Shown piece by piece: positions 1 through 64,000 of a DNA stretch of 64,000 bases. The notes under the pieces are model-generated. The model saw nothing but the letters and a program-made list of their open reading frames with translations. It was not told the DNA's origin and did no database searches. Position numbers and translations under genes: made by a program. Where the stretch lies: NCBI RefSeq assembly GCF_040807025.1, contig NC_090954.1:22262501-22326500 (forward strand). The letters run 5' to 3'. Numbering within the stretch: the stretch's first letter is position 1; the number at the start of each line of letters is the position of its first letter. This DNA is from Struthio camelus (lineage: Eukaryota; Chordata; Aves; Struthioniformes; Struthionidae).

Positions 1-152
1 TGCTTTTAAGCGAAGTGGGGAAAATACTGTCTCCTCCTTTCATGACAAAGGGATCATCCTGTCCCACTACAACGCACACATGTGGAAAGCAAACCACAAA
101 AATAATTGCGTCAAGTTAACAACGACCGAGACGTTGGCGACGGCTTACAGAC

Positions 153-215
153 CGACAGTGCATCGGGGTGCGACGGCGGGTCTCGCGCCGCTCTCCCACT
201 AAAATCCTACCACGA
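153..215 (-). pseudogene. Relic 3' end of a gammaB-type variable exon
   Basis: Read on the minus strand in phase 0, the bases before a GTCTGTAAGCC donor code RAARDPPSHPDALS. This aligns with the end of A1 (RGPAEPPSDADAVQ) before the same GTCTGTAAGCC. An in-frame TAG lies about 20 codons upstream, and no cadherin sequence can be seen further up. It is inferred to be the last trace of a lost variable exon that sat downstream of A1. A functional short exon is less likely. Confidence 0.65.
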
Positions 216-565
216 CTTGGAGAAGGGAAAAGCACTGTTGCGTGAAGGACGAGGGCCAACAAAGCTCATGAAATGCAAGACGGTCAGGACCGAGTATGCA
301 AACAGCACTGCCATTCAGTGTGAGAAGAGACATTCATGCTACTAACGCCTACGACAGCCTAGAAAAAAGAAGGCGTTACACTAGTGCTTCCTCCATTCTT
401 TCATTCACTCCAGCGGGCGCCACTCCGTCCTATTTCATATTCAAATAAAACCCCAGGGAAGCACCGCAGGTGGCTAAGGATGAGCAAAACTGTAAAAGCA
501 CGAATATAGGTCGTAAGAAGACAAGGCAGGGGGCGAGAGGAGGACCGGGTGGTCGGCTTACAGAC
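216..565. other. Spacer below A1 (intron to constant exons)
   Basis: It lies just past the A1 splice donor in the transcription direction, so it is intron for A1 transcripts. No gene, RNA or repeat was recognised. Confidence 0.5.
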
Positions 566-3007
566 CTGCACGGCGTCGGCGTCCGACGGCGGCTCTGCCG
601 GGCCTCGGCTGCTGCTCGGCGTCGGCGTCCCGGGCGCGTCCCCGCTGAGAAGATCCGCGGCGGCCAGGCCGGGCAGCGGGGCCGGCAGCCAAGCGCACTC
701 GGCCACGGCGCGGCCCGGGGCCACGCACAGGTTGTACGAGTAGGGCAAGGTGCCCTCGCAGAAGTCGGCCGGGAAGGCCGGGCCGGCCCCGGAGAAGCGC
801 TCGGCGCCCAGGCAGCGCAGGACGGCGGGCGGCCCGGCGCGGCGCACCCGCGCCACCACGGCCAGCGCCACGCTCAGCACCAGCAGGGCGCAGAGCAGCG
901 CCAGCGCCAGCACCAGGGAGAACTGCAAATCCGCCGGCGACTCGCCGCCCGCCGCCCGCTCGCTCAGCGCCGGCAGCGCCTCCTGCAAGCTCTCGGCCAG
1001 CACCACGTGCAGCGTGGCCGTGGCCGACAGCGCCGGCTGCCCGTGGTCCTTCACCACCACCACCAGCCGCTGCCGCGGCGCGTCCCGCTCCAACACGGCC
1101 CGCGCCGTGCGCACCTCGCCGCTGTGCAGCCCCAGCCGGAACAGCGCCGGCTCCGTCGCCTGCACCAGCTCGTACGACAGCCACGCGTTGCGCCCCGAGT
1201 CCGCGTCCACCGCCACCACCTTGGCCGCCAGCCACCCGGCCTCGGCCGACCGCGGCACCACCTCGAACGGGCCCGCGCCGGCGCTCGCCGCCGCCGCCGC
1301 CGGCCACAGCACCTGCGGCGCGTTGTCGTTGCGGTCCAGCACGAAGACGCGCACCGTCGCCGTCGAGCTCCGCGCCGGCGCCCCGCCGTCCTGCGCCCTC
1401 ACCTCCACGGCGAACTCGCGGCATTGCTCGTAGTCGAAGGAGCGCTGCGCGTACACCGCGCCGCTCCGCGCCTCCACCGACACGTACGCCGCCGCCGCCG
1501 CCGCCTCGCCCGCGCTGCCGCCCACCAGCCAGTAGCTCACGCGCCCGTTGGCGCCCGCGTCCGCGTCCCGCGCGCGCACGCGCAGCACCGCCGCGCCCGC
1601 CGCGTTGTTCTCCGGCACGTAGGCGCTGTAGGCGCCTTCCTCGAACACCGGCGCGTTGTCGTTCACGTCCGACACCGCCAGCGCCAGCGCGGTGCGGCTG
1701 CAGAGCGCCGGGCTGCCCCGGTCCTTGGCAGTGATTGTGATATTGTAGTCAGAATTTTTTTCTCTGTCCAGGCTATTATCAGTTACTAATTTGTAGGAAT
1801 TTTTCGAAGCTGATTCCAGTCTGAAAGGCAAATCGTCGTCTATGTAACAGCTTACATCTCCGTTATCTCCGGAGTCCCTGTCGCGAACATTGATCACCGC
1901 TACAACTGTGCCTGGAGCCGAGTCTTCAGGTATCGGGTTCAAGATAGGCAGGAGGGAAAGTGTTGGAGCGTTGTCGTTCATGTCTAGAATGTCTATGTGG
2001 ACCTTGGCGTGGCCACTCAGCCCGCCTCCGTCTTTGGCTTCAATGGTCGCCTCGTAGTATTTGGCCTCTTCGAAATCTAAGGGACCGGTAAGCTTGACCT
2101 CACCTGTTCTGGGATCCAGCCCGAAAAGTTGGCGAGCTCTGTTTCCGATGTCACTGAAAGAGTAGGTAATTTCCGCATTTGTACCTTCGTCACTGTCAGT
2201 GGCTTCCACCTGAAAAATTAAGGAGTCCTCAGGCAAGTTTTCCTCCAGTCGGACCTTGTACATTTCCTTGGTGAATACCGGGGTATTGTCGTTGGCGTCA
2301 GTCACATTAATCATAATGTGTACAGTCCCGGATCTGACTGGATGCCCACCATCCACCGCCATCAGTATCAAATGGTGATTTTCCTGTTTTTCTCGATCTA
2401 GCTGTTTCTCCAGTAGCAATTCCGCGTGTTTCTTGCCATCGGGATTCTCCTTCACTACTAGGGAAAATAGAGGATTGGGTGTAAGCTGGTAGTTTTGCAA
2501 AGAGTTAGCACCAACGTCAGGGTCTCTGCCACTTCCCAGCGGGAACCTCGCTCCTGGAGGCGTGGATTCCGTTATTTCTAGGTCAACAAATTCTCTGCCG
2601 AACTGTGGCGCGTTGTCGTTGATATCATGAATAGTAACGCTCACATGAAATATATTGAACGGGTTTTCCACCACCGCCTCGAAACTGAGGACACAGGGCG
2701 ACACGTCCCCGCAGATATCCTCCCGGTCTATCCTCTCGTTCACACACAGGCTTCCATTATCGTCCGCGATAGCGAAGTATTGCTTTTCGTCATTCGAAAC
2801 AATGCGCAGCTTGCGCGCCGGCAGGTCGGCCGGGCTCAGCCCCAGGTCCCGCGCCAGCGGCCCCACCAGGGAGCCGCTGCCCGTTTCCTCGGGAATCGCG
2901 TAGCGCAGCCGCTCCGGCGCCGCCCGGCAGCACAGCGGCAGCAGCACGGCCAACAGCGCGACGTGCCTGGCTGCTGCCTGCCGCTCCGCTGCCACTCTGA
3001 CATCCAT
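566..3007 (-). CDS. PCDHGB: Protocadherin gammaB-type variable exon A1
   Basis: This exon codes 814 residues of a neuronal homophilic adhesion protein at the plasma membrane, before splicing to gamma constant exons. Signal peptide about 1-29. EC1 to EC6 are bounded by calcium linkers: DINDNAP near 128, DANDNTP near 237, DMNDNAP near 342, DVNDNAP near 447, DRNDNAP near 558. The membrane helix is about 696-720. The tail contains EGTLPYSYNLCVA (751-763), typical of mammalian gammaB tails. The ATG at 3007 was chosen because it directly precedes the signal peptide; in-frame sequence further up lacks a better ATG. The exon ends CAG|GTCTGTAAG in phase 0. EC1-EC4 use mixed codons, while EC5 onward is extremely GC-rich. 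It differs from A2 by a few residues (Q10, L639) and two extra alanines near 572. The paralogue number cannot be assigned. Confidence 0.93.
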
Positions 3008-3193
3008 TCTTCGCTTTGCTGAGCGGTGTTCTGCAGACAATATGAAAATAGGCTCCTCGATCAGCTGAAATAATCCACAAGGGAAATAAATAAATGTAAT
3101 GACAGTTACCGGGCAGCGGACGGGCTGGAGCAGGGCCGGGGCGTTCCTGTTTTTCTCTCTGTCTCCCGTTACGGGGCGGCGCTGCGGGGATAC

Positions 3194-3214
3194 CCAGCGC
3201 CAGGGAGGCGCTGG
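3194..3214. promoter_or_regulatory. CTCF-like palindrome in A1 promoter
   Basis: Two perfect 8-bp arms, CCAGCGCC and GGCGCTGG, flank AGGGA, creating a CCAGGGAGGCGCT match to the CTCF core. It lies about 20 bp gene-side of the CSE. Binding is inferred, not shown. Confidence 0.45.
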
Positions 3215-3231
3215 TAAGAAGGACTGCTCCT

Positions 3232-3259
3232 CCGCGTTGGCCAACAGTGACACCCTGAG
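3232..3259 (-). promoter_or_regulatory. CSE-like promoter element of A1
   Basis: The minus-strand core GTGTCACTGTTGGCC lies about 230 bp upstream of the ATG. It aligns with the equivalent sites of B1 (GTGGTGCTGTTGGCC) and G1 (GTGTCGCTGTTTGCT). The position fits the known protocadherin CSE, which CTCF binds. Confidence 0.6.
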
Positions 3260-6200
3260 TCTAAGAACGGCAGCGTCCAAGGTAAAGTGAACGACTCGAA
3301 GCTCCAGTTAAACACATACTTAGGAAACACTCGAATCCGGATTGTATATTACGGATATGCAAGTATATGCATGTATATGCAGATATGCAGGAGCGCAAAA
3401 TAGAAAAATTGTATCTGTGGAACGTGTGCAGCTAGGTAAACTTATGTCTGATTTCCCTCCACCTGGAAGACTTCTGCAGGACAAACCTTCTGTTACTGCT
3501 TGAAGAAAAGCAGGAACCCTAGTCTCTGTATGCACATTGCCCTGAGAGATCTCTCGGGAGAGTGTGCTGCAGTGTATCTGAACCCACCACCTCCTCTTCA
3601 CTACCATGGGAAAAAAAAAAATAAGCGCGATGAGTCCAACCGCTGAAGCACTGCATGGAAAAACCGGTTTGAGTTTCGATAATTGGGAAATCCTGAGCTA
3701 ACAAGTAGATTACAGATTTCTTTACCAGTTCGACAGAAGGCAAGTGGTCACTGATGCTCGAGTAGAGCTGGGAATATCAACGCCTGAGAAAAGTAGAGTG
3801 GTCACAAGAGAGCTGCCAAATCCCATCTCTTTTGACGTTTCTTGCATCAAAACTCAGCGTCATCCTATCAGTGCCATACAACCTAACAGTATCTCTCCTT
3901 TGATCTGTGTCTCTTTGACAAACTACACTGTCATCTCCTAACTTAGCCAGGTGCTACTGCAGCAGGAGCCATATCTTAAGAACCTTTCCAGGAAAAGGTC
4001 GCCGGCGGTGATTGTTGCATGAGGAAGCCACAGGAAAAAAATAGACCCTATCCTCAGGGAGAGTCGTTATATCTCGCCTTTGCATTAAAAATGCGTCTTT
4101 CCAGTGAAGAAGGAAAGGTCTGATGGAGGGCTGTATTGCCACAGCCCCTTCATGCAGAGGACATGAAGGGATAAGAAAAACCTTCCACAGCACCTAATTG
4201 GTGACCGAGCTCCCGCATATATACCAGCGTTGTGTCTTTGTAGATATTGATCAGGCCACCTCCCAACTCAATAGGGTGTCGCTAGAAATCAGGGGAAGAT
4301 AATTCCTTTTCCCCCAAATGTGCACCTTGGCACAATTCAGGGTAACAAATGAACAGTTCGTCCCAAGGAGAACGTAGTGTGGATTTGAACTATTTCAGGA
4401 GGAGACAAGAGGGTAGCAGGCACGTAAGCATATGTATAGGTGGTCCAGGGAGCGTGGAGAAGGCATGGATATGTATGTAGGGATTGGAGGACTTTCTGCT
4501 GAAACATGCCGGGATGATTTCACAACCTCCTATGACAGACTATGGGCAGAGCTGCCAAACACAACCCGGTCACCAATTTGCAACAGGAAGTGATCCCTCC
4601 TAATTCATGGGTCCTCTCTTCCTCTTTGTACTGTCATCCACAATACAGTCATCTCCTAAAATCATGCAGGTGCGAACCAGCCTACATCAAAGATGGAAAC
4701 ATTTTCTTCCCACCCTCATGCCGCATATGATTTTATGTCTGAGAGGCAGCAGTGGGAAGGGATAAGGGATACTAAGGTTCATTCACCTGAAGCATAAGGT
4801 TATGTCAAAGCTCAAATGCCCACCACACGCAAAAGGACATATACAAACTCATGGTATTCTGGAAAGGACCTGGATCTGCATGAGAAATCTTTGTACACAT
4901 TCACCTGAAATCCTACTATATGATTTTCTCTCAACAACCCCGTTTTGAACTCAAAAACAGTGGGATTTATGTCTCAATAGTTTATTTTGCTTAATTTTAA
5001 GTTGCAACAGTGTATTGCTGGGCTAAATGACAGGAAAACAAATAATAGAGCAACACAAACTTACTAAATAACTGTATTTTTGAAGTCCTAAGAAGCCTGT
5101 TCAATCTAGGCCAAAATATCAGTAAGACAGGAAATAAAGTAGGCCATTTTGAGGATAGCCTATGTCAAAGAGGTATCTTCAAATGCCAGACTGGCATGTT
5201 TTGCAGGTAAAAATAATATAATATTCTATGGAAATCAAGGGGTAAGATATCTGATTTTCTCTTGTTCCCCACACTCAAAAATCAGAGACATGATGAATAG
5301 ACTGTGGTGAATCATACTCTATTTTAAAATATTTTGCCATTCATATTCAGGTCAATATACTCTGCAGATCAATGTCATACTTACACAAAGAAAAGACAAG
5401 TAGGATTATATCCAACCCAAAGGTCCAGTCACTAATGCAATGATTTCATAGCTTAAGAAGACTTTTCAAAGCAGTATTACACCTTGTCAGGTATTTTGAG
5501 GTCTTGTTTCCTGACTTGGGACACATACTTAGAAGGAAATGAGTGTTTAATAAGTTACCATATGCAGAGGAGTAAGGAAATCTGAGAAGGAGGTCAGTGA
5601 GTTTTTGTTTAAGGTGCAAGTATCATCTGTACCTAGACTATGGCTTCTCTGATACTCATAAGAAGAGGCAAATACAACATGATACTTTCTGTAAACTTAT
5701 AAGCAGAAATAAGTAGTTTTGCACGTCCATTTCATGGTAATATCCATCAATTTTATGCTTGCTTAGTCGCAAGGAAAAGAGAAAAGTGATAGAAAATCTT
5801 GGAAGACCAAATTATTTCTCTTTTGAATTTTTGTACTATTATTTTGTGATGGGCTTGCAAATGTTTTCCACTGTGTCTGTGGTTTTTTTCATCTGTGTGT
5901 CCAAAGTTTATTCTGCCTTTCATTAAAAAAGAGTGCAAATAATACTGACTGAGAAAAAAATGGAATCTAAAGCAAACACACAGGACTCCACACTAATCTA
6001 ACAGAACTGCTTATTAAACTTGCTGCTTCTCTGCCTCTGTACGTGGTTGGCAGAGAAAAAGGAAATACAAAACAAAGTGGGTTCTTCACTGTGACTCCAG
6101 TGAAGAAGTGTTCACTACTGTAATTTACAGCTGTTTTGCCACAGTTCTGCCTTAAAATTCAGGCGCAGAGCACCTGAAAGTCAGTGAGGTCTCAGGTTGC

Positions 6201-7080
6201 AAGCTAGGCCCTACATTCTTGCTTTGGCCCTTACAGAGGGGTATAGCTCTTCTCATTTTCAGTTGTCCAGCCAACTTCACTGCTGACTCACCTACCTTCC
6301 TTTTCCTAATCCAGCCTCTCACCCTCATTGCATTGCCTGTGCACGCTTTCACTGCCCCATAGCTGTCTGACTATTGGCCCTACATATGCCACAAGCAAGA
6401 GTTTAATCCACAGACATATTAAGCAAATATATATATTACAAAGCCATCCTTTCATAGCTTTAAACACTGCAGGTAGGTATGCAGACTGCTACTCCTCTAA
6501 TGCATTTCTAACCTGTTATCAGGCACACTGAGGCCTAGCTTTAGGTCATACCAACAAATATGACTAGCATTTGAAACATTCAGCAATTAAGGAAGCCTAC
6601 TATAATAATTTAGATTACAGCACTCACAGCAGGTTTTTATAACCCCATTTCTTTGGCGAAATTTATTTGGGCAGAAGGAACTGAGATTGCATGATACCAC
6701 AGCTGCTTGCTTTATGTAATAAGAGAGAAGAGGAATGCAGCAAATCACAAACCTTGACTTCTTCAGCAGAGGCTGAGATAGAGATCCCTCAACTCTCGTC
6801 TCAAAACCTTCATAGCCTCTTTGGCTGTTTCTAACCCTCCACATTTTCAAATGCATATCATCCGAACACCAGCTGCACACACCATTTCTCCCGGTGATGC
6901 ACCAGGATCGCAGTGTGAATATATATACACAAGGGAGGTACATCCGTATGCTGACCACACTATAATGACGAAACAAGCACGTCTTAGAGCATATAAACGA
7001 TGTAAGGCTGAAGTAAGAGACGTGCAGTTTTACAGCAAACACTGGGTCGTGCGACTATTTCCTTAAAAACGCTGTTTAAG
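3260..7080. other. A1-G1 spacer with old spacer homology
   Basis: No gene was recognised. From about 5750 to 6830 it is a diverged copy of the spacer at about 18165-20537. Shared blocks include gcttgcttagt(c/t)gcaaggaaaagag, the cagaactgctta region near 6003 and the tcagtgaggtc region near 6180. The 4.7-6.0 kb part is AT-rich compared with the rest of the window. It is intron in transcripts from promoters further upstream. Confidence 0.6.
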
Positions 7081-7458
7081 ATCCTCCTTTACGGACGCGT
7101 GCCATTTCCCAGACACGCGGCCCTTCTCCTAGCCTAAGCTTGGCAACTCTTCCCCCAGCAAAAAATAGTCGTGAACGCAGAGGCACGCTCACGTTCCCAC
7201 ATTCCACAACCACTCGCAAAACACCGCAGAACAAACCAACCAACCCGAAACAAACCAGAAACAAAATGCGCATGTGCTTCCCCTCGGCAAGACGCACTGA
7301 ACAGCAACGTGCCGGTACCCTGAGCTACGCCTCCACTTGCAAAGCCACCGCCCGCCCTCCTCCCCGTACAGGCAGGAAAGGCCGGGGCTAGAGAAGCCTA
7401 GAGCAGGCAGGCAGTGAAGCTTTTCGTAGAGAGCGAAAGTCTCGTCAGAGGCACTCAC
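7081..7458. other. Conserved 3' flank of gammaA exon G1
   Basis: This is intronic sequence directly after the GTGAGT donor. It is almost unchanged in all five gammaA copies, unlike sequence left of 7081. No gene was recognised. Confidence 0.6.
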
Positions 7459-8196
7459 CGGGAGGGCGTCTCCGCTGTCGCTGTCGCTGTCGCTGCCGCT
7501 GTCGCTGCCGGCGCCGGCGCCGGCGGGCTCTTCGGGCAGCAGCGGCGCGCGTTTGTCGGGCGGCGGCGGGGCCGGCAGGGTGTTGGAGCCGCTGGCGCCC
7601 GGGCAGCGGCGCTGGCTCTTGCGCGAGTCGGCGGTGAGCGAGAGCTCGTGCGAGTAGGAGTGGAGGAAGGCGCGGACGCCGTCGATGCCCACGAAGGGCG
7701 AGGCCGGGGCGGCGCGCGAGGCCCCGCTGCCCGCGGCCAGCAGCCGCGAGCGGCGCCAGCGGCGCAGGCGCAGCGCCAGCAGCGCCAGCAGGAAGGCGAG
7801 GAAGAGGCACGCCACGGCCGCCACGGCCAGCACCAGCCAGCGCGTCAGGCTGCCGGCCGGCTCGCCCGGCGCCGCCGCGCCGCTCAGCTCCGACAGCAGC
7901 TCCGCCACGCTCTCGGCCAGCACCACGTGCAGCGTGGCCGTGGCCGACAGCGCCGGCTGCCCGTGGTCCTTCACCACCACCACCAGCCGCTGCCGCGGCG
8001 CGTCGCGCGCCACCGGCAGCCGCGCCGTGCGCACCTCGCCGCTGTGCAGCCCCACGCGGAAGAGCCCCGGCTCCGTCGCCTTGGCCAGCTCGTACGACAG
8101 CCACGCGTTCTGCCCCGAGTCCGCGTCCACCGCCACCACCTTGGCCACCAGCGTCCCGGGCTCCGCCGACCGCGGCGCCAGCTCCACGCCCGACCA

Positions 8197-8227
<31 letters not shown>

Positions 8228-9948
8228 GCCGCCGCCGGGTACAGCACCTGCGGCGCGTTGTCGTTCTCGTCCACGATGAAGAGCCGCACCGACACGTTGC
8301 TGCTCAGCGCCGGCGCGCCCCCGTCCTCCGCCCGCACCCACAGCCCCACCTCGCGCACCTCCTCGTAGTCGAAGGAGCGCAGCGCGTACAGCGCGCCCGT
8401 CTCCGCGTGCACCGACACGTAGGACGAGAGCGGCGCGCCCCGCACCTGCCCCTCGCACAGCCGGTACCGCACGCGCCCGTTCTGCCCCCAGTCCGCGTCC
8501 GCCGCCCGCACCCTCAGCACCAGCGCGCCCTTGCCGTTGTTCTCGGGCAGCCAGGCGCTGTAGCGCGCCTCGCCGAACACCGGCGCGTTGTCGTTCACGT
8601 CCAGCACCCGCAGCGGCAGCACCGCGCTGCTCCACAGCGCCGGCGACCCGCCGTCCGTCGCCCGCACCGTCACGTTGTACTCCGACACCTCCTCCCGGTC
8701 CAGCTCCCCGTCGGTTACCAGGCTATAGTAATTGTCAAAAGTCCTCTCCAGGCGGAACGGCAGGCTTTCGGCGATGCTGCACCTCACCTCCCCGTTCGCC
8801 CCCGAGTCCCGGTCCTGCACGTTGACAATAGCAACGACTGTCCCCAGCGGCGAATCTTCCGCGACCGGGCTGAACACCGACGTAATGACAATCTCTGGGA
8901 CGTGGTTGTTCACGTCAGCAACGGTGATGAGAACCTTGCTGTGGGACGAGAGTCCACCTCCGTCTCGGGCTTGCACGTCCAGCTCATAAAAGGCCCTTCT
9001 CTCGAAATCCAGCCTTTCTGTGACGGTAATTTCCCCACTCTCCGGGTCCAGTTGAAAAGTCCTGTCCACTTTCTCCGGGACTTTATGGAACGAGTACCTG
9101 ACTTGGGCGTTTGGCCCCTCGTCCCTGTCAGTCGCTGTCACCCGCAGCACCCGACTTCCCACGGCCACATCTTCTCTCACGGTCACCTCATACACGGACT
9201 GAGTAAAGGCCGGCGCGTTGTCGTTTCCATCTAACACGACGACGCGGATTGCTGTCGAGCCCGATTTCACGGGACTCCCGCCATCACTTGCTGTCAGGAG
9301 CAAGTTATGAACTGCCTGCTCTTCCCGATCCAAAGGGTTCGCTAGTATCAGTACCGGATATTTCACACCATCAGCTCCGGTCTTTACCTCCAGGGTGAAA
9401 TAGCTGCTCTGGCTACACTCGTAATTTTGCAGTGAGTTCACCCCGATGTCGGGGTCTTCAGCTTTCTCTAAAGGGAAACGCGTGCCTGGCGCTGTATGCT
9501 CTATGATTTCTAAGACGCTGTTTCTTGCCGGGAAAACGGGCGAGTTATCGTTAATGTCCTGGATTTCTACCTCCCCTCTGTAGAGCTTCACTGGACTCTT
9601 CACAAGAATCTCCACATTCAGGACACATTTAGCAACGCCAGAGCAGATGTCCTCTCTGTCTACACGCTCGTTGACAGCTAAATGGCCGTTTTCCAAGTTC
9701 AAAGCGAAATACTGCCGCTTACCTTCGGAAACAACGCGGGCGCCGCGGGCGCGCAGCGCCGCCGGCTCCAGCCCCAGGTCCTTGGCCACGTCGCCCACGA
9801 AAGAGCCCTTCTGCATCTCCTCGGGCACCGAGTAGCGGAGCTGCCCCCACGCCAGCTCCCACGCCGCCACCAAGGCGCACCACAGCAGCGCTCGCCCTCG
9901 CCCTCGCCCTCGCTCTCGCCGGCCCCAGCGCCTCTCTCCAGCCGACAT
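7459..9948 (-). CDS. PCDHGA: Protocadherin gammaA-type variable exon G1
   Basis: The exon codes 830 residues. Arg-rich N terminus and signal peptide about 1-35; mature start QLRYSVPEE. EC1 to about 134, EC2 to 245, EC3 to 350, EC4 to 455, EC5 to 566, EC6 to about 680. Membrane helix about 703-727. The gammaA tail motif GIDGVRAFLHSYSHELSLTA is at 754-773, then a Gly/Ala and Ser/Asp repeat. The exon ends ALP|GTGAGTGC, phase 0. The ATG at 9948 directly heads the signal peptide. The EC3-EC4 linker reads DVNNHVP where the family has DVNDNAP, so two calcium-linker residues differ. EC1 (after residue 70) to EC4 is unlike G2 and G3. From about residue 417 (base 8700) down it is nearly identical to them. 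Confidence 0.93.
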
Positions 9949-10171
9949 CTCAAAGCTCGTGAAGACTGGCCCGCCGGCCCGGTGCCGGACGAAAGACGGG
10001 CCCGCGGGCCACCGCTCTCGCCGTACTCCTCCTGGCTGAACCTTCTCTCCCAGCAGCAGAACCGGCCGCCTTCCCCGCCGGCCTCTTTCCTGCGCTGTCC
10101 TTGCAGTGCGGCGGCGGCTCCTCTCGCTCAGGCTCGCTTCTGTTCTCGCGGTCCCTGGCTGCCGACCGGCT

Positions 10172-10199
10172 CGTCGTGAGCAAACAGCGACACTTGCAG
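10172..10199 (-). promoter_or_regulatory. CSE-like promoter element of G1
   Basis: The minus-strand core GTGTCGCTGTTTGCT lies about 230 bp upstream of the ATG. It carries the CGCT box and aligns with the A1 and B1 elements. Confidence 0.6.
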
Positions 10200-11985
10200 C
10201 CTCCGACAATCACTGCAGCGCTCCAGCGCTGCCACGGGGAAACCCTGCCCACCTTTCCGCTCCCCCGATCTGCACACGCCAGTCGCGGCTGTCAGTATGC
10301 CCAATAGCATTGCGTAGGGACACAAGACCACAGCTTCGCGATTCAGGGATGTGTGCGCCCCATCGTATGCCGCAGGCTAATATTAGATTCCCGCCAACTG
10401 CTAGGAACCTTCCAAGACTCGAGCAACGGTGGAGAAAGGGCATGGTAGGCTGTGATGTGAAAGGTTTGTAGGAGCAACAGGAACGTGGGCAAGACGAGCT
10501 GGAATAACGGTGCAGTGTGGCCGCTTCGGGGCCGGGGCCGGGGCGGGGGAGAGGGGGGCGGGAAACACAAGCCTTGCTTTCTGCAGCCGTCGTCTATGCT
10601 GCAGTACGCGGTGCCCTGTTGCAACGGGCGAATCACGTTACGAAAGGCCAGAAGAAAACCCTTTCCAGAAGGGTGGAGGCAGAAAACAGATGGGGTGTGG
10701 CGACGCACCTCGGCTTATGGAGCTGAGCCTTGGCCTTTTGCTGCCATTCTCACTCATTGCTCCGGACAGTTCTGCCTGCCACGTCGCTTACGTTAGGGCA
10801 CACGAACACAGCAAAAGGCTGCCGGACTTGAGCAGGTGGCAGCCGCAGTAAAACCTGTACGCCTTTAACGTCGGACACCTTTCTAAATAGCACACGTATG
10901 CACCGCTGCACGTAACGTCCTACAGCGGCCATCCTAGTCCCAGCTCTCCTCGGAGCCCGCAGCCTCACACGGCTCCGTCGCTCCAGCACGTCGCGAAGCA
11001 AAAGCGGGGCTCTGCAGCCGCACCTCACTGGCTTCCAGGCGCCTTGGCATGCCCAGAGCCCCTGCTGCTATAGCGGCCAACAGCCCACCACCGTGACTGA
11101 ACTGAGGCGTTTCGCAGACACTCTCCCCAGGCGTCAAGAAAAATGCTCGGCGCCACCTCGCCCGCTCCCCCGCCCCCGAAAGAACCCTCACACCTGTGAA
11201 AGCCTTGCGGTCCTCTACAGAGGCCGGAACGAAGGAAATATGTGCCCAAAGCTGCTTCCGCAACCCACCTTTAGTTCATCGCAGGAATGGCATTCGGGTG
11301 CTTTTATTATTTTTATTACTCGGTTTGGAAAAGAAAGGTTTACAGACCCCCCACTCGGTAACTGCGATTCCATGCAATGCCACGGTTTCAGGATATGTGC
11401 TGCCCGACAGCCTTCATTCAAATAATGCCTTCATAGATCGGCAGGGACTACAACTCTTAGTTCAAAGCATGGGTGGAACACTGTTAAGAGACAGTCAGCA
11501 TACCGAAAGGGAATTCGGGGGCAGCGGGGCAGGGGCGGAAGCGAATGCAAACGCTCTAACGGGGGCTACGGCAGTTCGAAGCGACTCGCGCAATTTCTTT
11601 GCATCCATCCGCTTAGATTTAATACGGCTGCACGATTTTAGTTTCTTTCCTTACAACGACTGGGGCAAGGACGTAACAGGACGTTCTTCAACTAACTCGG
11701 CTACACAAGAACGGAAATACGGTATCAACTGATCGACGAAGTCCAATCAACTTGTTTTCTTTTTTTTGTTGTGGTTCTTTTTTTCTTTTCTTTTTTTTAA
11801 GGTGGTGGCAGCCAACCGCGGTAGTGGCTCAGCATCCGAGGGAAATTGGTGAGGCTACCTGCGACGGCAAGTTTCCTCTGGGGGAATCATTGCCGCGTCT
11901 CTTACCCCGGATCCCTCCCTACCCAGGGGCAACCAAGTGAGGGTATCCCACGCCGCTTTAGGAGGGAAGCGTCAAGCCATTGATT
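10200..11985. other. G1-B1 spacer with G-quadruplex-type run
   Basis: No gene was recognised. A plus-strand G-rich run at 10528-10562 (four or more runs of four or more G, with GGGGCGGGG boxes) could form a quadruplex or bind Sp1. A T-rich stretch lies at 11755-11800. The spacer is nearly invariant in units b and d. Confidence 0.55.
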
Positions 11986-11999
11986 ATGCTCACTTAGCG

Positions 12000-14444: not shown

Positions 14445-14628
14445 GTCGGGCCCGGCAGACACCCTGCGTCTCGCGGATCGCCTGCCCGGTCCTCCGGGGA
14501 GCTTCCCGCGCGGAACCGCCGCAGCCTTGCGGCCGGGCGCCCCTGCTCGCCGAGTCCGCTACGCGGCCCGGATGGCTGCCGAGCTGGCCCGCCAGCGCCT
14601 GGCACGGAGCACCGCTCGCCGCCCCGCT

Positions 14629-14723
14629 CGCCGCCGCCGCCGCCGCAGCGCCGCCGCCGCCCCGCTCGCCGCCGCCGCCCCGCTCGCCGCCGCCGCCGCA
14701 GCGCCGCCGCCGCCGCCGCCGCG
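14629..14723. repeat. GCC trinucleotide-rich tract before B1
   Basis: GCC and GCCCCGCTC repeats lie in the CpG-rich B1 5' region, next to the CSE. The tract is about 30 bp shorter in the B3 copy. Confidence 0.7.
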
Positions 14724-14751
14724 CCGCCTTGGCCAACAGCACCACCCTGCG
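14724..14751 (-). promoter_or_regulatory. CSE-like promoter element of B1
   Basis: The minus-strand core GTGGTGCTGTTGGCC lies about 290 bp upstream of the ATG. It shares TTGGCCAACAG and CACCCTG blocks (plus strand) with A1. Confidence 0.6.
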
Positions 14752-15185
14752 GCCCGCGGCGGGAACTGCTCCCGCCCGGCCGCGCCGCCGCGCTCGCCTC
14801 CGCCGCGCCGCCGGGCGAGCCCGGCCGCGGCCGGCACGAGCCGCTCGCCAGGGCCGCCGCTGCGAAGCCGGGGCAGAGCGGCCGCGTCGGCGGCCCGGCC
14901 GCGGCCGTCCCGAGCGGAAAGCCGAAGGGGACACACAGTGCCTTTGCAGAGTCCCTGTGCCTGCGCCCGCTACACGGCAAGGCCTTCCCCGCACGCAGGT
15001 CTCGAGCTCCTCCTCCGCCTCTCTTGTTCACTGGGCCTTATTCACGCCCGCAGCCCCCGCTGTAGTCGCCCACGCACGCCGGAACGCCAGCTCCCGAGTA
15101 CTCTGCGGCTAGTCAGCGGTCCGCGCACGCCAACGCTGGCAACTGTCGTCTTCTCTCGATCGACAGCGAGAGGAAATAAAAGAGG
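14752..15185. other. CpG-rich upstream flank of B1
   Basis: GC-rich at first, falling toward 15180. No gene was recognised. Confidence 0.5.
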
Positions 15186-16310: not shown

Positions 16311-16342
<32 letters not shown>

Positions 16343-17787: not shown

Positions 17788-17820
17788 CACACACACATAC
17801 ACACACACACACACACACAC
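17788..17820. repeat. CA microsatellite
   Basis: Short (CA)n with one TACA interruption. Confidence 0.85.
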
Positions 17821-48977: not shown

Positions 48978-49020
<43 letters not shown>

Positions 49021-50741: not shown

Positions 50742-50964
50742 CTCAAAGCTCGTGAAGACTGGCCCGCCGGCCCGGTGCCGGACGAAAGACGGGCCCGCGG
50801 GCCACCGCTCTCGCCGTACTCCTCCTGGCTGAACCTTCTCTCCCAGCAGCAGAACCGGCCGCCTTCCCCGCCGGCCTCTTTCCTGCGCTGTCCTTGCAGT
50901 GCGGCGGCGGCTCCTCTCGCTCAGGCTCGCTTCTGTTCTCGCGGTCCCTGGCTGCCGACCGGCT

Positions 50965-50992
50965 CGTCGTGAGCAAACAGCGACACTTGCAG
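50965..50992 (-). promoter_or_regulatory. CSE-like promoter element of G4
   Basis: Identical to the G1 element. Confidence 0.6.
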
Positions 50993-52792: not shown

Positions 52793-55237
52793 CTAGTCAA
52801 AGGGAAGCCTGCTGAACTGTCCCGCAGGCAGCGTCCCGGCGCTCTGCGGCCGCGGTTCCTCGGCGGCGGTGAGGCCGCTGGGGAAATCCTCTTCCCCGGC
52901 AGCGCCCCGCTCCGTGCCGCAGCGCTGCGGCGGCAGGCTGGGGAGGACCGGCTTCAGGAACTTGAACTCGCTGTTGCCCGAGCCCGTTGTGAGGCTGATC
53001 TCGTAGCAGTAGGCGTGGGGCAGAGTCGCCGTCCCGGCGGCGTCGGCCAGGCTGCTCTGGAAGTTGCCGGGGCCGTAAAGCACGGTGCCCTCTTTCGGCG
53101 CCGTTCTCTTGCGCACCTTGCAAGCGACGAAGGCTGTGGCGGACGCGAGGAAGAGGAGCGAGACGAGGGCCAGGGAGACGATTAGATACACCGTCAGGGA
53201 GCCGCCCTCGTCCTCCGGGGCCAGGCCGCTGCGCGGCATGTGCGCGTCCGAGAAGCCGTCGAGCAGGAGCGCGCCCAGCGCCGCCGTGGCGGACAGCGGC
53301 GGCCGCCCGTTGTCGCGCACCAGGACGAGCAGCTTCTGCTTCACGGCGTCCCTCTCCGTCACCGGCCTCCTCAGCCGCACCTCCCCGGTTTGCGCCCCCA
53401 CGGCGAACAGCCCGGGGTCCGTTGCCTTGAGCAGGTGGTAGGAGAGCCACGAATTCTGCCCCGAGTCGGCGTCGACGGCGACCACTTTGGTGACGAGGTA
53501 GCCCGCCTCGGCCGACGTGGACACCAGCTCGCTGGACGGCGGCGAGCTGTCCTGCGCGGGGTGCAAGACCACGGGCGCGTTGTCGTTTTCGTCCACCACC
53601 AGGATGCGGACGGTGACGTTGGCGCTGAGGGGCGGCGAGCCCGAGTCGGCGGCGCTCACCACCACCTCCAGCTGCCTCACCTGCTCGTAGTCCAGCGGCC
53701 GCAGCACAAACACGTTCCCGTTCTCGGAGTTCACGGAGACGTAGGAGCGCGGGGCCCGCTCCGCGGGCTGGGCCGGCGCCAGGGAATAGGTCACCTTCGA
53801 GTTGGGCCCCACGTCCTCGTCCGCGGCGCGGACGGCCCCGACGAGCGCGGCCGGGTCGTTGTTCTCGCGCACGTACATGGTGTACGACGTCTGGTTGAAC
53901 ACGGGCGCGTTGTCATTGACGTCGGAGACGTCCACCGTGAAGGTCTGCGTGGTCGTGAGAGCCGGGGACCCCGCGTCGGCCGCCGTGACGGCGAGGATGT
54001 ACTGCGCCGTCTGCTCCCGGTCCAGGGTGCTCGCTGTCACCAGCTCGTAGTAATTCTTATAGGCAGGCCTCAGGGAGAAAGGGGACACAGAGTCTTCCAG
54101 GGAACAGACCACCTTCCCGTTGTCCCCGGCGTCCCGGTCCTTAACGACAAAGAGGCCCACCACCGTCCCGGGCGACGCGCTCTCGGCGAGCGGGCTGCGG
54201 AAGGAACTCACCACCAGCTCCGGCGCGTTGTCGTTCACATCCACCACCTCCACCACCACCTTGCAGAGCGCCGAGAGACCGCCGCCGTCTGTGGCGCGCA
54301 CGCTCAGCTCTTGTTTCTCCGCCGCTTCGAAATCCAGAGGCCGGGTGACACGAATTTCACCAGTCACGGCGTCGATCTTGAACGCCGGGCGCCTGTGCCC
54401 CACCGCCTGACTGAACGAGTACCGTATCTCCCCGTTAACTCCCACATCCGCGTCAGTCGCGACCACGCGCAGAACCACGGAGTCCTCCGGGGCGTCTTCC
54501 AAAACCTGGCCATTGTACAGCTCCTGCGTGAAGACAGGGGCGTTGTCATTTACGTCCAGGACAACGATGCGGATCTGGGCCGTCCCGCTCCGCGGCGGAG
54601 AGCCCCCGTCCGTGGCAATGAGGCTGAAACCAATCTCCGCTTGCTCCTCTCTGTCCAGCGGCTTGGCCAAGACTAATTCGACGGAATTGCCGCGCCTACT
54701 CTGACTCCGGAAAGAGACGCTGAAATACTCGTTCTCGGGAGCGATGCTGTAAGCCTGCAGGCTGTTGCTGCCAACATCCAGGTCCCGAGCCCCCTCCAGC
54801 GGGAAGCGGGACCCCGGCTCGCTCATTTCCACGATCTTTAAAGTCACTTGTTCCTCCGGGAAAACTGGCGAATGGTCATTGATATCCTCTACGGCCACTT
54901 CGATCCGAAAGAACTGCAGGGGGTTTCCCAGCAGTAACTCAAAGGAGAGCGTGCACGTGATGGACTGGCCGCAGATCTCTTCCCGATCTATCCTCTCCCT
55001 GACGGCCAGGCGGCCGGTCCTGCGGTCTAACCGAAAATGCTGCCGGCCGTCCTCCGAAACAAGCCGGGCCTCGCGAGCCCAGAGCTGCGCCAGGTCCAGC
55101 CCCACGTCCTTCGCGACATTAGCGACCAGGGAGCCGCTCTCCCTCTCCTCGGCGACCGAGTAGCGAAGCGGCTCGGAGCGAACATGCGGCACGGAGAGAA
55201 CAACACAGAGACAAAGCACTTGCCTTGCAGACGCCAT
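52793..55237 (-). CDS. PCDHB: Beta-like protocadherin B3, complete single exon
   Basis: 814 residues with the B1-type EC2-EC3 (IVEMSEPG, SRRGNSVEL, QELYNGQ). Private or shared changes: Q for H at 309 (EAAEKQELS), R for H at 347 as in B2, S for P at 573 (ELVSTSAEA). Same TAG end and the same phase-0 GTGAGC after it. Start ATG at 55237. Confidence 0.9.
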   Translation of the reverse strand: MASARQVLCLCVVLSVPHVRSEPLRYSVAEERESGSLVANVAKDVGLDLAQLWAREARLVSEDGRQHFRLDRRTGRLAVRERIDREEICGQSITCTLSFELLLGNPLQFFRIEVAVEDINDHSPVFPEEQVTLKIVEMSEPGSRFPLEGARDLDVGSNSLQAYSIAPENEYFSVSFRSQSRRGNSVELVLAKPLDREEQAEIGFSLIATDGGSPPRSGTAQIRIVVLDVNDNAPVFTQELYNGQVLEDAPEDSVVLRVVATDADVGVNGEIRYSFSQAVGHRRPAFKIDAVTGEIRVTRPLDFEAAEKQELSVRATDGGGLSALCKVVVEVVDVNDNAPELVVSSFRSPLAESASPGTVVGLFVVKDRDAGDNGKVVCSLEDSVSPFSLRPAYKNYYELVTASTLDREQTAQYILAVTAADAGSPALTTTQTFTVDVSDVNDNAPVFNQTSYTMYVRENNDPAALVGAVRAADEDVGPNSKVTYSLAPAQPAERAPRSYVSVNSENGNVFVLRPLDYEQVRQLEVVVSAADSGSPPLSANVTVRILVVDENDNAPVVLHPAQDSSPPSSELVSTSAEAGYLVTKVVAVDADSGQNSWLSYHLLKATDPGLFAVGAQTGEVRLRRPVTERDAVKQKLLVLVRDNGRPPLSATAALGALLLDGFSDAHMPRSGLAPEDEGGSLTVYLIVSLALVSLLFLASATAFVACKVRKRTAPKEGTVLYGPGNFQSSLADAAGTATLPHAYCYEISLTTGSGNSEFKFLKPVLPSLPPQRCGTERGAAGEEDFPSGLTAAEEPRPQSAGTLPAGQFSRLPFD

Positions 55238-55424
55238 GTCGGGCCCGGCAGACACCCTGCGTCTCGCGGATCGCCTGCCCGGTCCTCCGGGGAGCTTCCC
55301 GCGCGGAACCGCCGCAGCCTTGCGGCCGGGCGCCCCTGCTCGCCGAGTCCGCTACGCGGCCCGGATGGCTGCCGAGCTGGCCCGCCAGCGCCTGGCACGG
55401 AGCACCGCTCGCCGCCCCGCTCGC

Positions 55425-55974: not shown

Positions 55975-56191
55975 AGGAAACACAAAAGCAAAAGGCAAAG
56001 GCAAAGGCAAAGAAATAGAAAAAGAAACAGAAACAGAAAAAGAAACAGAAAAAGAAACAGAAAAAGAAAAAGAAAAAGAAAAAGAAAAAGAAAAAGAAAA
56101 AGAAAAAGAAAAAGAAAAAGAAAAAGAAAAAGAAAAAGAAAAAGAAAAAGAAAAAGAAAAAGAAAGAAAAAGAAAAAGAAAGAAAAAGAAA
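55975..56191. repeat. AAAAAG tract, shortest copy
   Basis: About 215 bp. It has AAACAG variants near one end and almost no AAAAGG block, unlike the other two copies. Confidence 0.9.
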
Positions 56192-56680
56192 AGTTCTGCG
56201 GCAAAGCACGGGAACTACGCTGCTCTTCCAACCTGTCCGAGAGAACCATTGCCCCGGGGACGAGAGTTACAAGCCCCTCCCCGGGACTGTAAGCAAAGCG
56301 CATGAACATACAGATTACCGTACAGTTAGCTGTTTATCCCAAATGCCCCCACCACGCCTGCTAACTCCACTACGTCTTTTACCGCTCTGGACCGCAGAGA
56401 GATGACTCGGGATGTGCTGCTCTGTGCAAACGTGGCTGCCTGAGGCAGTCCCTCGCATTTCCACCCGAAACACTTGGCAAGGGCTCTTCCCCTGGTGGGA
56501 CTAATCAGGCTTTCCCTCGGTCCCAGGAAGGCTTACTCGTAGACGCGCCTCCCATGGCGTCATGGTATTCCAAGAAGTATCCGGCGGGGAGCGGTGGGGG
56601 AGGGAGGAGAAAGGAAGGGGTGATGGGGCGAGGGGACGAGGAGGTGCGGGGAACTAAACATACGGAGGGGCTGTTCTCAC
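56192..56680. other. Spacer before pseudo-exon 3
   Basis: Matches 15441-15926. No gene was recognised. Confidence 0.5.
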
Positions 56681-57770
56681 CTGATTAAGTTCCCCTTCAC
56701 AAGCCGGCTGGGAGTGGGACAGGAGTTCCTCGTCCCTGTGCTTGCCCGCCTCAGCGCAGCTCTGCGGAAGAGGCGGCCTCGGGAGGACGGCTCGCAGGAA
56801 CGCGCTGCAACGCGCTCTTCCCCGAGCCGGTGCTCAAGCACACTTCATAGCCGTAAGCCGCCGACAGAGTGCCCGCGCCGGCCACGTCCGCAAAACTACT
56901 GCAGACATCGCCAGCGGCGTAACCGTGCGCAGAGGCAGGTGAACGCCTTCCTCGTAGTCGACCCTTGCAGAGCTTCGCCCCCGAAAAGGCGACGGCGGCG
57001 AAGAGGAAGAGAGAGGAGACGGAGCACAAGGAAGCGACGAGGTAGGGGGCTAGCAGGTTCTCCTCGTCGCTGACGCCGTCGCCGTCGCCGTCGCCCTCCG
57101 GTTTGCCCGCAGGAGCGTGGGAAAGCTGCAGGAAGGCGTCGGAAAAGCCCTCCAGCAGGGCGAGGCTGAGGGTGATGGTGGAGGAGCGCGGCGGCTGGCC
57201 GCTGTCCCTCACGAGCACGACGAGTCCCTGCCTGGCCGCGTCCCGCTCCGCCACGGCCCGCGCCGTGCGCACCTCGCCGCTGTGCAGCCCCACGCGGAAG
57301 AGCCCCGGCTCCGTCGCCTTGGCCAGCTCGTACGACAGCCACGCGTTCTGCCCCGAGTCCGCTGTCGGCGCTTTCCTCCAGCGCCGGCGCCTCCTCGTTC
57401 ACGTCCGACACCGCCAGCGCCAGCGCGGTGCGGCTGCAGAGCGCCGGGCTGCCCCCGTCGCGGGCCATCACCGTCACGCTGTGCTCGGACGCCCGCTCCC
57501 GGTCCAGCGCGCTCGCCGTCACCACCTTGTCGGAGCTGCCCGGCGACGCCACCATCGCGAACGGCGCCTCGCCCTCCAGCTCGCACCACACCTTCCCGTT
57601 CTCGCCGGAGTCCGCGTCGTGCACCTTCACGAGCGCGACGACCGTGCCGGGCGGGGAGTCGCAGAGCGCAGCCGCTCCGGCGCCGCCCGGCAGCCCAGCG
57701 GCAGCAGCCGAGCGCACAGCAGCACGGCCCTGGCTCCTGCCGAGCCGCTTTGTCCGTGCCGGCTTTCCAC
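56681..57770 (-). pseudogene. Pseudo-exon 3, decayed gamma-type variable exon
   Basis: Same damage as pseudo-exons 1 and 2: EC1-EC3 and EC5-EC6 losses, GTG at the start site, 10-bp duplication at 56797-56816. The phase-0 CAG|GTGAGA end at 56681 is kept. The GTCGCC repeat is interrupted (GDGDGDGVSDEE). A few substitutions are private to it. Confidence 0.88.
57065..57096. repeat. GTCGCC repeat in pseudo-exon 3
   Basis: Short, with an interrupted end coding GVSD. Confidence 0.7.
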
Positions 57771-58114
57771 TCTCCCCAGCCCGCGCTGCGCTCCGTCCTC
57801 CTGCCCCTTCCCTTCCTTCCCTGCCCGTCCGGCACACGCCGGCACCCGCCGGCACCCCAGCTCGCGGCAGCGACCCCAGCGCGGCCGCTTCGGCCGCTGC
57901 TGCTCTCCGCCAATCTCCCCCGTGCTCTGCTTTCTCTCCGCAGAGAGCCGCGGACCCCGCCTGCGCTGGCTGCTCGCAAACTCTCCTCTAGCACAGTGAG
58001 AACCGCGGGGCAGACGAGAAGCGTCTTCCCGACCGCTCGCCGCCTCTCCCGGAGGCTCCGGCGGCTGCGGCTGCGGCTGCGGCTGCGGCTGCGGCTGCGG
58101 CTGCGGCGCTGCTC

Positions 58115-61292: not shown

Positions 61293-61670
61293 ATCCTCCT
61301 TTACGGACGCGTGCCATTTCCCAGACACGCGGCCCTTCTCCTAGCCTAAGCTTGGCAACTCTTCCCCCAGCAAAAAATAGTCGTGAACGCAGAGGCACGC
61401 TCACGTTCCCACATTCCACAACCACTCGCAAAACACCGCAGAACAAACCAACCAACCCGAAACAAACCAGAAACAAAATGCGCATGTGCTTCCCCTCGGC
61501 AAGACGCACTGAACAGCAACGTGCCGGTACCCTGAGCTACGCCTCCACTTGCAAAGCCACCGCCCGCCCTCCTCCCTGTACAGGCAGGAAAGGCCGGGGC
61601 TAGAGAAGCCTAGAGCAGGCAGGCAGTGAAGCTTTTCGTAGAGAGCGAAAGTCTCGTCAGAGGCACTCAC
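61293..61670. other. Conserved 3' flank of gammaA exon G5
   Basis: Same as 7081-7458 with one change noticed. No gene was recognised. Confidence 0.6.
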
Positions 61671-62426
61671 CGGGAGGGCGTCTCCGCTGTCGCTGTCGCT
61701 GTCGCTGTCGCTGCCGCTGCCGCTGTCGCTGTCGCTGCCGGCGCCGGCGCCGGCGGGCTCTTCGGGCAGCAGCGGCGCGCGTTTGTCGGGCGGCGGCGGG
61801 GCCGGCAGGGTGTTGGAGCCGCTGGCGCCCGGGCAGCGGCGCTGGCTCTTGCGCGAGTCGGCGGTGAGCGAGAGCTCGTGCGAGTAGGAGTGGAGGAAGG
61901 CGCGGACGCCGTCGATGCCCACGAAGGGCGAGGCCGGGGCGGCGCGCGAGGCCCCGCTGCCCGCGGCCAGCAGCCGCGAGCGGCGCCAGCGGCGCAGGCG
62001 CAGCGCCAGCAGCGCCAGCAGGAAGGCGAGGAAGAGGCACGCCACGGCCGCCACGGCCAGCACCAGCCAGCGCGTCAGGCTGCCGGCCGGCTCGCCCGGC
62101 GCCGCCGCGCCGCTCAGCTCCGACAGCAGCTCCGCCACGCTCTCGGCCAGCACCACGTGCAGCGTGGCCGTGGCCGACAGCGCCGGCTGCCCGTGGTCCT
62201 TCACCACCACCACCAGCCGCTGCCGCGGCGCGTCGCGCGCCACCGGCAGCCGCGCCGTGCGCACCTCGCCGCTGTGCAGCCCCACGCGGAAGAGCCCCGG
62301 CTCCGTCGCCTTGGCCAGCTCGTACGACAGCCACGCGTTCTGCCCCGAGTCCGCGTCCACCGCCACCACCTTGGCCACCAGCGTCCCGGGCTCCGCCGAC
62401 CGCGGCGCCAGCTCCACGCCCGACCA

Positions 62427-62457
<31 letters not shown>

Positions 62458-64000
62458 GCCGCCGCCGCCGCCGGGTACAGCACCTGCGGCGCGTTGTCGT
62501 TCTCGTCCACGATGAAGAGCCGCACCGACACGTTGCTGCTCAGCGCCGGCGCGCCCCCGTCCTCCGCCCGCACCCACAGCCCCACCTCGCGCACCTCCTC
62601 GTAGTCGAAGGAGCGCAGCGCGTACAGCGCGCCCGTCTCCGCGTGCACCGACACGTAGGACGAGAGCGGCGCGCCCCGCACCTGCCCCTCGCACAGCCGG
62701 TACCGCACGCGCCCGTTCTGCCCCCAGTCCGCGTCCGCCGCCCGCACCCTCAGCACCAGCGCGCCCTTGCCGTTGTTCTCGGGCAGCCAGGCGCTGTAGC
62801 GCGCCTCGCCGAACACCGGCGCGTTGTCGTTCACGTCCAGCACCCGCAGCGGCAGCACCGCGCTGCTCCACAGCGCCGGCGACCCGCCGTCCGTCGCCCG
62901 CACCGTCACGTTGTACTCCGACACCTCCTCCCGGTCCAGCTCCCGCGCCGTCACCACGCTGTAGTAGCTGCCCAGCGAGCTCCGCAGCCGGAACGGCAGC
63001 CCCGCGCCCAGCGACAGCCTCACCTCCCCGTTCGCCCCCGAGTCCCGGTCCTGCACGTGCAGCAGGGCCACCACCGTCCCCACCGCAGAGTCCTCGGACA
63101 CCGCGCTCAGCAGCGACCGCACGGCGATCTCGGGCGCGTTGTCGTTCACGTCCGTCACCGCGATCACGACCTTCGCCCTATCGGAAAGGCCCCCGCCGTC
63201 CGTCGCCTGCACCCCCAGCTCGTACGAGTCGCCTTCCTCGAAGTCCAGGTTCCTCACCAGGGTGATCCCTCCCGTCTCATGGTCCAGCTGAAACATCTGC
63301 GATGCCTTCTCTGTGACTTTCTTCAGTGAGTATTTCACCTCTCCGTTCAGGCCGTCGTCGGCATCGGTGGCTCTGACGGTGACCAGGGCGGAGCCCACGG
63401 GCACGTCCTCCCGCACGCGCACCGTGTACACCGCCTGGCTGAACACCGGCGCGTTGTCGTTCGCGTCCAGCACCACCACGCGGATCCGCGCCGTGCCCGT
63501 CCGCGCCGGCTCCCCGCCGTCCTCCGCCCTCAGCACCAGCTCGTGAAACGCGCCTTCCTCCCGGTCCAGCGCCTTCGCCAGCACCAGCTCGGGCTGTTTC
63601 CCCCCATCCGGTCCCGTCTGCACGGCCAGACCGAAGTGCTCGTCGCCGCTCAGCTCGTAGCGCTGCAGGGCATTCCTCCCGCTGTCCGGGTCCTGAGCCT
63701 CAGCCAGGGGAAACCGCGACCCCGGGGCTGTGGTCTCGCTCACTTTCAGCTCCGTTTCTGCCTCTCGGAAGCTGGGCGCGTTGTCGTTAACGTCTCTGAT
63801 TTCCACCTCGATCGCATAAACCTTCATTTCGCCCGCCGCGATCACCTCACAGCGCAGCACGCATTTCTCCACCAGCCGGCACACCTGCTCTCTGTCTATC
63901 CTTTCCGCCGTCACTAAATGGCCGGTCTTGTCATGCAGAGCGAAATACTGCCGCCTACCTTCGGAAACAACGCGGGCGCCGCGGGCGCGCAGCGCCGCCG
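61671..64000 (-). CDS. PCDHGA: Protocadherin gammaA-type variable exon G5, 5' end outside window
   Basis: About 776 codons from early EC1 to ALP|GTGAGT. The start codon, signal peptide and promoter lie beyond the window; no start inside it is credible. EC1 is a mosaic: RVVSEG as in G1, then RRQYFALHD as in G2, then a private CRLVEKCVLRCEV. EC2 matches G2. EC3 has its own stretch (SLKKVTEKASQMFQLDHETG and following), and the EC4 start is APEIAVRSLLSAVS. From there it equals G2. It has the longest Ser/Asp repeat of the five before the donor. By position it is the superunit-2 partner of G2, yet it has a different predicted specificity. Confidence 0.92.

Follow-up and report, generated by a model that had tools for sequence, protein, structure and literature searches.

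In the mammalian protocadherin (Pcdh) gamma cluster, A and B exons alternate. An open question for such clusters is the origin of new homophilic specificities when both interface faces lie on one molecule and must change together. In the Pcdh2 alpha and gamma paralog subclusters of fugu, the 3' part of neighbouring variable exons is ~99% identical and the 5' part is diverged; the two parts meet at a discrete boundary, which lies in EC4 or EC5, and GC3 is raised on the homogenised side, a rise that the study used as a signature of conversion (PMC1852091). Ectodomain dS ratios are 79.5-1280 for zebrafish Pcdh2 (Noonan et al. 2004) and 2.25-7.89 for anole subgroups, both as quoted in a section of a 2009 paper that gives only the alpha subcluster as characterised in chicken (PMC2764143). 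In mouse, EC6 is conserved within subfamilies, at 90% in gammaA and 96% in gammaB (PMC5106212), and duplicated Pcdh-alpha exons with identical promoters are each stochastically expressed (PMC4151104).

Here, we describe the anatomy of a tandem array in a bird genome, the sharply bounded islands of divergence within its exons, the reassortment of small loops among them, and a hybrid exon. We consider it highly probable that the array is the beta/gamma side of the clustered protocadherin locus, grown by unequal exchange under strong concerted evolution in which the recognition cassettes were protected.

Exon content and identity

The window, by which we mean the whole stretch of 64,000 nucleotides analysed (C13:22,262,501-22,326,500), lies inside a larger locus at C13:22.170-22.397 Mb in a genome of 1.45 Gb and 262 contigs, and 300 kb around it (C13:22,120,001-22,420,000) were examined. 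An ORF search of these 300 kb, in which an exon was defined as an ORF with at least four DxNDN motifs, yielded 37 open variable exons, all on the minus strand between 22,170 and 22,397 kb; because of this definition, broken exons are under-counted. The exons comprise 15 A, 8 B, 8 beta-like (b) and 6 others, with the A, B and b labels assigned by tail motif and specific to this analysis. Their order, 5' to 3', is o01 o02, b03 A04 b05 A06 b07 A08 b09 A10 b11 A12 b13 A14, followed by B15 A16, b17 A18 b19 A20, B21, and then by A22 B23 A24 B25 A26 B27 A28 B29 A30 B31, A32 B33, o34-o37; beta-like copies are thus interspersed among A exons. The window itself, whose exons likewise read on the minus strand, holds the gammaB-like B21 (404-3307, 968 aa) and its copy B15 (41191-44088, 966 aa); the gammaA-like A20 (7192-10209, 1,006 aa) and A14 (47973-51002, 1,010 aa), both of cassette class 1, and A18 (20649-23621, 991 aa) and A12 (61404-64000, its ORF ending at 64,445, beyond the window), both of class 2; and three beta-like exons of 852 aa, b19 (12003-14558, with its own stop and lacking a good splice donor), b17 (25455-28010) and b13 (52796-55351).

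A protocadherin gamma variable exon, whether A or B, is a single large exon that codes for six cadherin repeats followed by a transmembrane helix and a short tail. The Pfam families cadherin, Cadherin_2 and Cadherin_C_2 were matched on representative A, B and b proteins, including 3 of the 3 A/B proteins submitted. In phmmer searches the A representative placed protocadherin structures on top, gammaB4 first and then gammaA9; gammaB4 was also the best match of the B representative and of the b representative, for which beta8 and beta6 ranked 10th and 11th. Judged from sequence only, a strong phase-0 splice donor, CCG|GTGAGT, follows the tail in 15/15 A exons and a weak phase-0 donor, CAG|GTCTGT, follows it in 8/8 B exons, and all eight beta-like exons have their own stop codon and a tail with one poor phase-0 GT. 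The labels gammaA-like, gammaB-like and beta-like follow from this domain, search, donor and stop evidence, the beta assignment being the least certain of the three: a beta gene would be expected to have beta isoforms as its nearest relatives and to be situated between the alpha and gamma clusters. Downstream of the variable exons, PF15974 matches C13:22,146,956-22,147,204 and, below threshold, 22,168,478-22,168,540, which we take to be gamma constant exons 3 and 1, respectively; the putative exon 1 reads in phase 0 after AG, matching the donor phase of the variable exons. Further constant-tail matches at 22,452-22,487 kb are, by position, presumably alpha. The presumed alpha side is also in tandem: two segments (L034, C13:22,541,001-22,551,000; L035, C13:22,575,659-22,585,658) are 98.5% identical over 10 kb at a shift of ~34.66 kb, with hints of a shorter, ~7-kb repeat. 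Gamma variable exons have a conserved promoter element with a CTCF site; with the matrix used here, no such CTCF-type motif scored above shuffles at any of the 37 exons. Long antisense open frames of 610-684 aa lie opposite A and B exons (plus strand, 7,402-9,231 and 48,183-50,024 in the window; also C13:22,200-22,252 kb); GC-rich third positions could keep them open by composition.

Repeat units, superunit and the hybrid exon A16

Self-comparison of the window aligned positions 7,080-23,388 with 20,537-36,969 (94.8% identity, shift 13,457), 34,109-36,969 with 47,861-50,730 (85.5%), and 1-23,209 with 40,788-64,000 (98.96%, shift 40,787). Together with the exon identities, these alignments support a preliminary description of the window as a recently grown array on the protocadherin gamma side in which duplications are nested. 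The 13.5-kb unit reported there is present five times, whole or in part, with A exons at 7,192, 20,649, 34,221, 47,973 and 61,404 (the last passes the window end), and the older round of duplication it had noticed in the spacers is visible as a weaker similarity of 67% between 5,756-6,087 and 18,166-18,515. Two array types, which it had missed, make up the repeats, one of 12.5-kb A+B units and one of 13.45-kb A+pseudo-exon+beta-like units. Four full unit intervals compared in the 12.5-kb array are 0.30-0.67% apart. The 13.45-kb array holds eight A and eight b exons, and its six complete b-to-b units differ by 0.39-0.73% outside one island of ~1.07 kb. Units of mixed age, as the raw values of 85% and 94.8% might imply, were rejected: sliding windows resolve one island in ~99.5% identical DNA, and both values are averages over such spacer and this single, sharply diverged island.

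Seven full-length pseudo-exons accompany b exons across the locus, three of them within the window on the minus strand (16142-17101, 29697-30674 and 56896-57855). All are mosaics, 98.3% identical to o02 in the 3' part and 95.5% identical to B33 at the 5' end, a composition suggesting that the 13.45-kb unit descends from an o02-b-A triple. The beta-like exons, at 98.1-99.9% aa identity, lack class diversification. Every unit also contains an AAAAGA microsatellite of varying length (15,192-15,438, 28,642-28,993 and 55,984-56,192), and purine tracts of 83 to 421 bases occupy the corresponding place of other units.

The coordinates of the 40,787-bp superunit, with its restart at 40788, hold. The first copy, 1-40787 (unstranded, as is the second), has its phase set by the window start, since the ~40.8-kb similarity already begins at C13:22,256,167, before the first position of the window (about -6,333 in window coordinates); the second, 40788-64000, is cut by the window end and continues into further 13.45-kb units. 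Two copies are therefore present, and they do not form a series. The preliminary description had also missed that near-identity stops sharply at the recognition domains. The superunit copies show 141 differences in 23,159 aligned sites; the final two bins, in which the cassettes of A18 and A12 differ, account for 60 and 19 of them, and one microsatellite bin for another 18. Over the first 15 kb there are 26 differences in 14,992 aligned sites (0.17%), and the copies have an exact run of 3,035 bases in common. B15 and B21 encode identical EC1-EC4 proteins, loop differences being found between the neighbouring A exons, and zero substitutions from ~3,000 to 6,000 in the B15/B21 region indicate that the superunit is young there.

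Both the 0.17% divergence over 15 kb and the exact run are within the allelic range, as they would be if haplotypes or collapsed repeats had been placed one after another during assembly, inflating the copy number and making the superunit. We regard such an artefact as very unlikely. Eight unit copies cannot equal two haplotypes, and a 1.2-kb spacer probe (10,400-11,600) gave eight full-length matches in a genome search, all at C13:22.27-22.38 Mb, with zero on other contigs and one 44-bp match elsewhere among the best candidates scored (9/9). The copies, moreover, carry distinct cassettes and loop combinations, and 35 of the 37 EC1-EC4 sequences are distinct, forming 13 groups at 80% identity.

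A further point that had escaped the preliminary description is that the junction of the superunit falls within an exon. This exon, the gammaA-like A16 (34221-37268, minus strand), is a hybrid whose 3' side and downstream spacer belong to one array (array-2) and whose cassette, 5' leader and upstream region belong to the other (array-1). Counted from the 3' end, its diagnostic sites are of array-2 up to +237 and of array-1 from +1,548, with four stray sites; the interval holding the superunit crossover, 34458-35769 on the minus strand, has zero fixed differences between the arrays when three A exons per array are compared. This pattern indicates that an unequal crossover in the homogenised 3' half made both the superunit and the hybrid exon, which is open and in frame.

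The proposal of three time scales of duplication is borne out in part. The superunit copies, at 26/14,992 sites, stand against the higher values given above for the 13.45-kb and 12.5-kb units, whereas on the common 3.8-kb flank the superunit pair A20/A14 has 7 differences and the eight other pairs measured have 8-18. Exchange between units also blurs any clock. If birds accumulate about 2e-9 substitutions per site and year, divergences of 0.17% and ~0.5% would correspond to ~0.4 and ~1.2 million years, rough ages that are unreliable because exchange resets the clock.

Islands of divergence in the recognition domains

Along the 13.45-kb unit, identity between class 1 and class 2 copies is 99-100%, falls to 52-70% per 90-bp window across a gap-free stretch of ~1 kb, and returns to 100%, with a sharp change at both ends. 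Mismatch in this island is 36.3-37.8% over 1,066 columns in 8/8 unit pairs, compared with 0.41-0.68% over ~12.3 kb outside it. Alignment to gammaB4 places the island at mature aa ~45-380, from late EC1 to EC4; on the minus strand of the window it occupies 8701-9708 in A20 and 49494-50501 in A14 (class 1), and 22146-23153 in A18 and 62937-63944 in A12 (class 2). Over aa 51-398, the class 1 proteins (A04, A08, A14 and A20) are 99.4-100% identical, A14 matching A04, which lies outside the window, throughout EC1-EC4; the class 2 proteins (A06, A10, A12 and A18) are 90.8-97.4% identical, and identity between the classes is 56.9-58.3%. Beyond the cassette, the 15 A exons agree at 98.2-100% over the next 392 residues, irrespective of array. 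For A04/A06, dN is 0.36 and dS 1.45 in the cassette, and dS is 0.003 in aa 399-790, the 3' half of the same exon; with a dN/dS of ~0.25, both cassettes look long constrained. GC3 is 100% in EC4b-TM of 15/15 A exons and 56-99% in EC1b-EC4a. The 3' ectodomain thus combines low dS with raised GC3 and the 5' ectodomain has high dS, which is the teleost-type signature. Islands occur in B exons as well: B15 and B23 are 47-65% identical over EC1b-EC4a and 100% identical from EC4b to the tail, and the differences between B23 and B33 lie mainly in EC2-EC3.

Two anchors flank the cassette, codons 1-30 and 391-420, for which there is one nucleotide haplotype in 15/15 A exons. The upstream DNA of array-1, array-2 and A32 A exons is unrelated (~40%). 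Before thinning, the flanks of the six complete units offer 65 informative sites, 3 of which follow the class split, and the four-gamete test fails in 1,110 of 2,080 site pairs. After masking of low-complexity stretches and thinning of sites, the figures are 1 of 28 sites and 203 of 378 pairs in conflict, with at least 16 exchanges. The idea that flank SNPs track the cassette class was rejected, since by either count they are nearly unlinked to it, and the flanks are therefore shared freely across classes.

These flank data bear on a history in which units of a single class were duplicated, one conversion pasted in a diverged, A32-like EC1-EC4 (class 2), and both kinds then multiplied, with little need for ongoing exchange or selection. 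The class 2 and A32 cassettes are indeed 87.6-93.4% identical in protein, with zero-difference runs between blocks of difference, and the 5'-3' class order, 1 2 1 2 2 1, A16, 2 1, is consistent with duplicated pairs and one loss. Such a history predicts class-marking flank SNPs, however, and just the single thinned site behaves in this way; several later flank exchanges would be required anyway. We consider it possible, though somewhat doubtful.

Exchange is also apparent at a finer scale. Within the cassettes, zero-difference stretches alternate with blocks that are up to half mismatched (aa 61-75, 101-112, 241-298 and 311-330). At an EC1 micro-block covering aa 36-41 (9718-9735, minus strand, in A20, with E at residue 39), identical 45-base haplotypes recur across cassette families: A06 has its haplotype in common with A22 and A24, A08 with A10, A16, A18, A26 and A28, and A12 with A30 and A32. 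Small loops are reassorted in this manner among A exons separated by as much as ~180 kb. Of the 15 A exons, 6 have E at residue 39, 3 have Q and 6 have K, and the residue varies within all three cassette backgrounds, with only E and K in class 1; in the B array it is E or A. By alignment it corresponds to gammaB residue 41, which is paired with K338 and R340 in a salt bridge between EC1 and EC4 (PMC5106212), and PMC5001838 and PMC5106212 disagree on the extent to which EC1:EC4 sets specificity. In the B array (C13:22,200-22,253 kb), EC1 residue 39 and EC4 residue 342 covary, being E/R in B23, B25 and B29 and A/H in B27 and B31, and residues 96 and 113, which lie between them, group otherwise; this covariation rests on five sequences, too few to count.

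The distribution of recent variation was compared within groups of closely related exons. In 5/5 near-identical groups, variability in EC1-EC4 exceeds that in aa 399-760 by a factor of 4-80, with mean values of 0.99 v 0.11, 0.50 v 0.14, 4.33 v 0.05, 0.95 v 0.17 and 1.62 v 0.12%. Variable sites within groups are not enriched at 14 structurally named positions, 0/7 groups being significant (P = 0.053, 0.19, 0.44, 0.61, 1.0, 0.16 and 1.0). With exact matching, 7/20 variable aa sites recur between B and beta-like exons, a value reached by 0/397 rotations; recurrence is also in excess between A and beta-like exons (1/397 rotations) and is weaker between A and B (11/397). It fades when displacements of 1 or 2 residues are allowed, A/B then giving 50 and 68 of 397 rotations.

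Under neutral concerted evolution, DNA that has diverged too far to pair would escape conversion. The island would then be no more than a passive block of heterology, coinciding with the recognition domains by historical accident, because the old paralogs happened to differ there. Conversion needs homology, the island is exactly the part that is anciently diverged, and heterology alone could protect such islands without selection. The excess variability of EC1-EC4 in every near-identical group and the recurrence of variable sites between B and beta-like exons argue against this explanation, the latter argument being tempered by A exons without class 2, whose recurrence with beta-like exons is not in excess (1/14 sites; 166/397 rotations). 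On this evidence a purely neutral origin seems rather unlikely.

A model of the array and its relation to known systems

In the reading that we favour, concerted evolution with protected cassettes, two unit types, A+B and A+pseudo-exon+beta-like, would have expanded while unequal crossover and conversion homogenised whatever can pair. Copy-to-copy exchange would keep the spacers, the promoter regions and the first ~40 mature EC1 codons nearly identical, and likewise the part from late EC4 to the splice donor. Across EC1-EC4, exchange would be blocked, as the classes do not pair, or its products would be selected out, so that ancient diverged cassettes would survive as 1-kb islands, inside which short tracts would still be exchanged and interface loops reassorted. 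One crossover between homogenised exon halves would have produced the 40.8-kb superunit and A16, which suggests that these halves serve as crossover sites building further duplications and hybrid exons. Because EC1-EC4 is kept as one block, with both partners of the antiparallel interface together, a swapped cassette would be expected, from the published dimer, to stay self-complementary. We infer that the mechanism is gene conversion, that specificity is under selection and that every copy is expressed. Each copy would then provide a further isoform for stochastic choice, alike in promoter and signalling half and distinct in its recognition half; since the duplicated alpha exons of mouse are stochastically expressed, the extra copies here plausibly add isoform choices.

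The array comes close to a natural controlled experiment, in that promoter, spacer and signalling half are constant, reassortment affects entire EC1-EC4 cassettes as well as individual loops, and exons differing in one known block can be compared for specificity. Given identical anchors at the EC1 start and from EC4 to the donor in 15/15 A exons, meiotic exchange could swap cassettes or single loops, and such a swap (for example, of E, Q or K at residue 39) would leave the promoter and signalling parts untouched. It is conceivable, if unlikely, that the locus is a germline cassette-exchange system for neuronal identity, in which individuals differ in the number and kind of their recognition codes.

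Our literature search turned up no paper describing either the array or, in birds, two-sided islands, which is weak evidence of absence, and the terms 'pcdh' and 'cadherin' were not found in a paper on duplications in 117 vertebrates. Relative to the mammalian gamma cluster, the locus is alike in the A/B alternation of its 12.5-kb array, in the common constant exons downstream and, to judge from mouse, in the conservation of EC6 within subfamilies; it appears to differ in its near-identical tandem units and in the beta-like exons among its A exons. The targeted tandem duplication of mouse Pcdh-alpha resembles it in that exons duplicated within a single cluster have identical promoters, and differs in being engineered, in the alpha cluster and without cassette divergence (PMC4151104). 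The dS contrast is zebrafish-like, ~480 between cassette and 3' half for A04/A06, a pairwise ratio computed differently from those quoted for zebrafish, and is found here in an amniote-like genome. As in the fugu clusters, a homogenised 3' part with raised GC3 adjoins a diverged 5' part. In fugu, however, low homology starts at residue 1, whereas here the diverged segment is closed on both sides, the first ~40 codons being identical, and homogenisation in the 13.45-kb array extends to the spacers and promoter regions. Thus, homogenisation of the 3' exon with diversification of the 5' exon is a known process, here as strong as that reported in fish, and the two-sided island within nearly identical whole units is, within the literature searched, apparently new.
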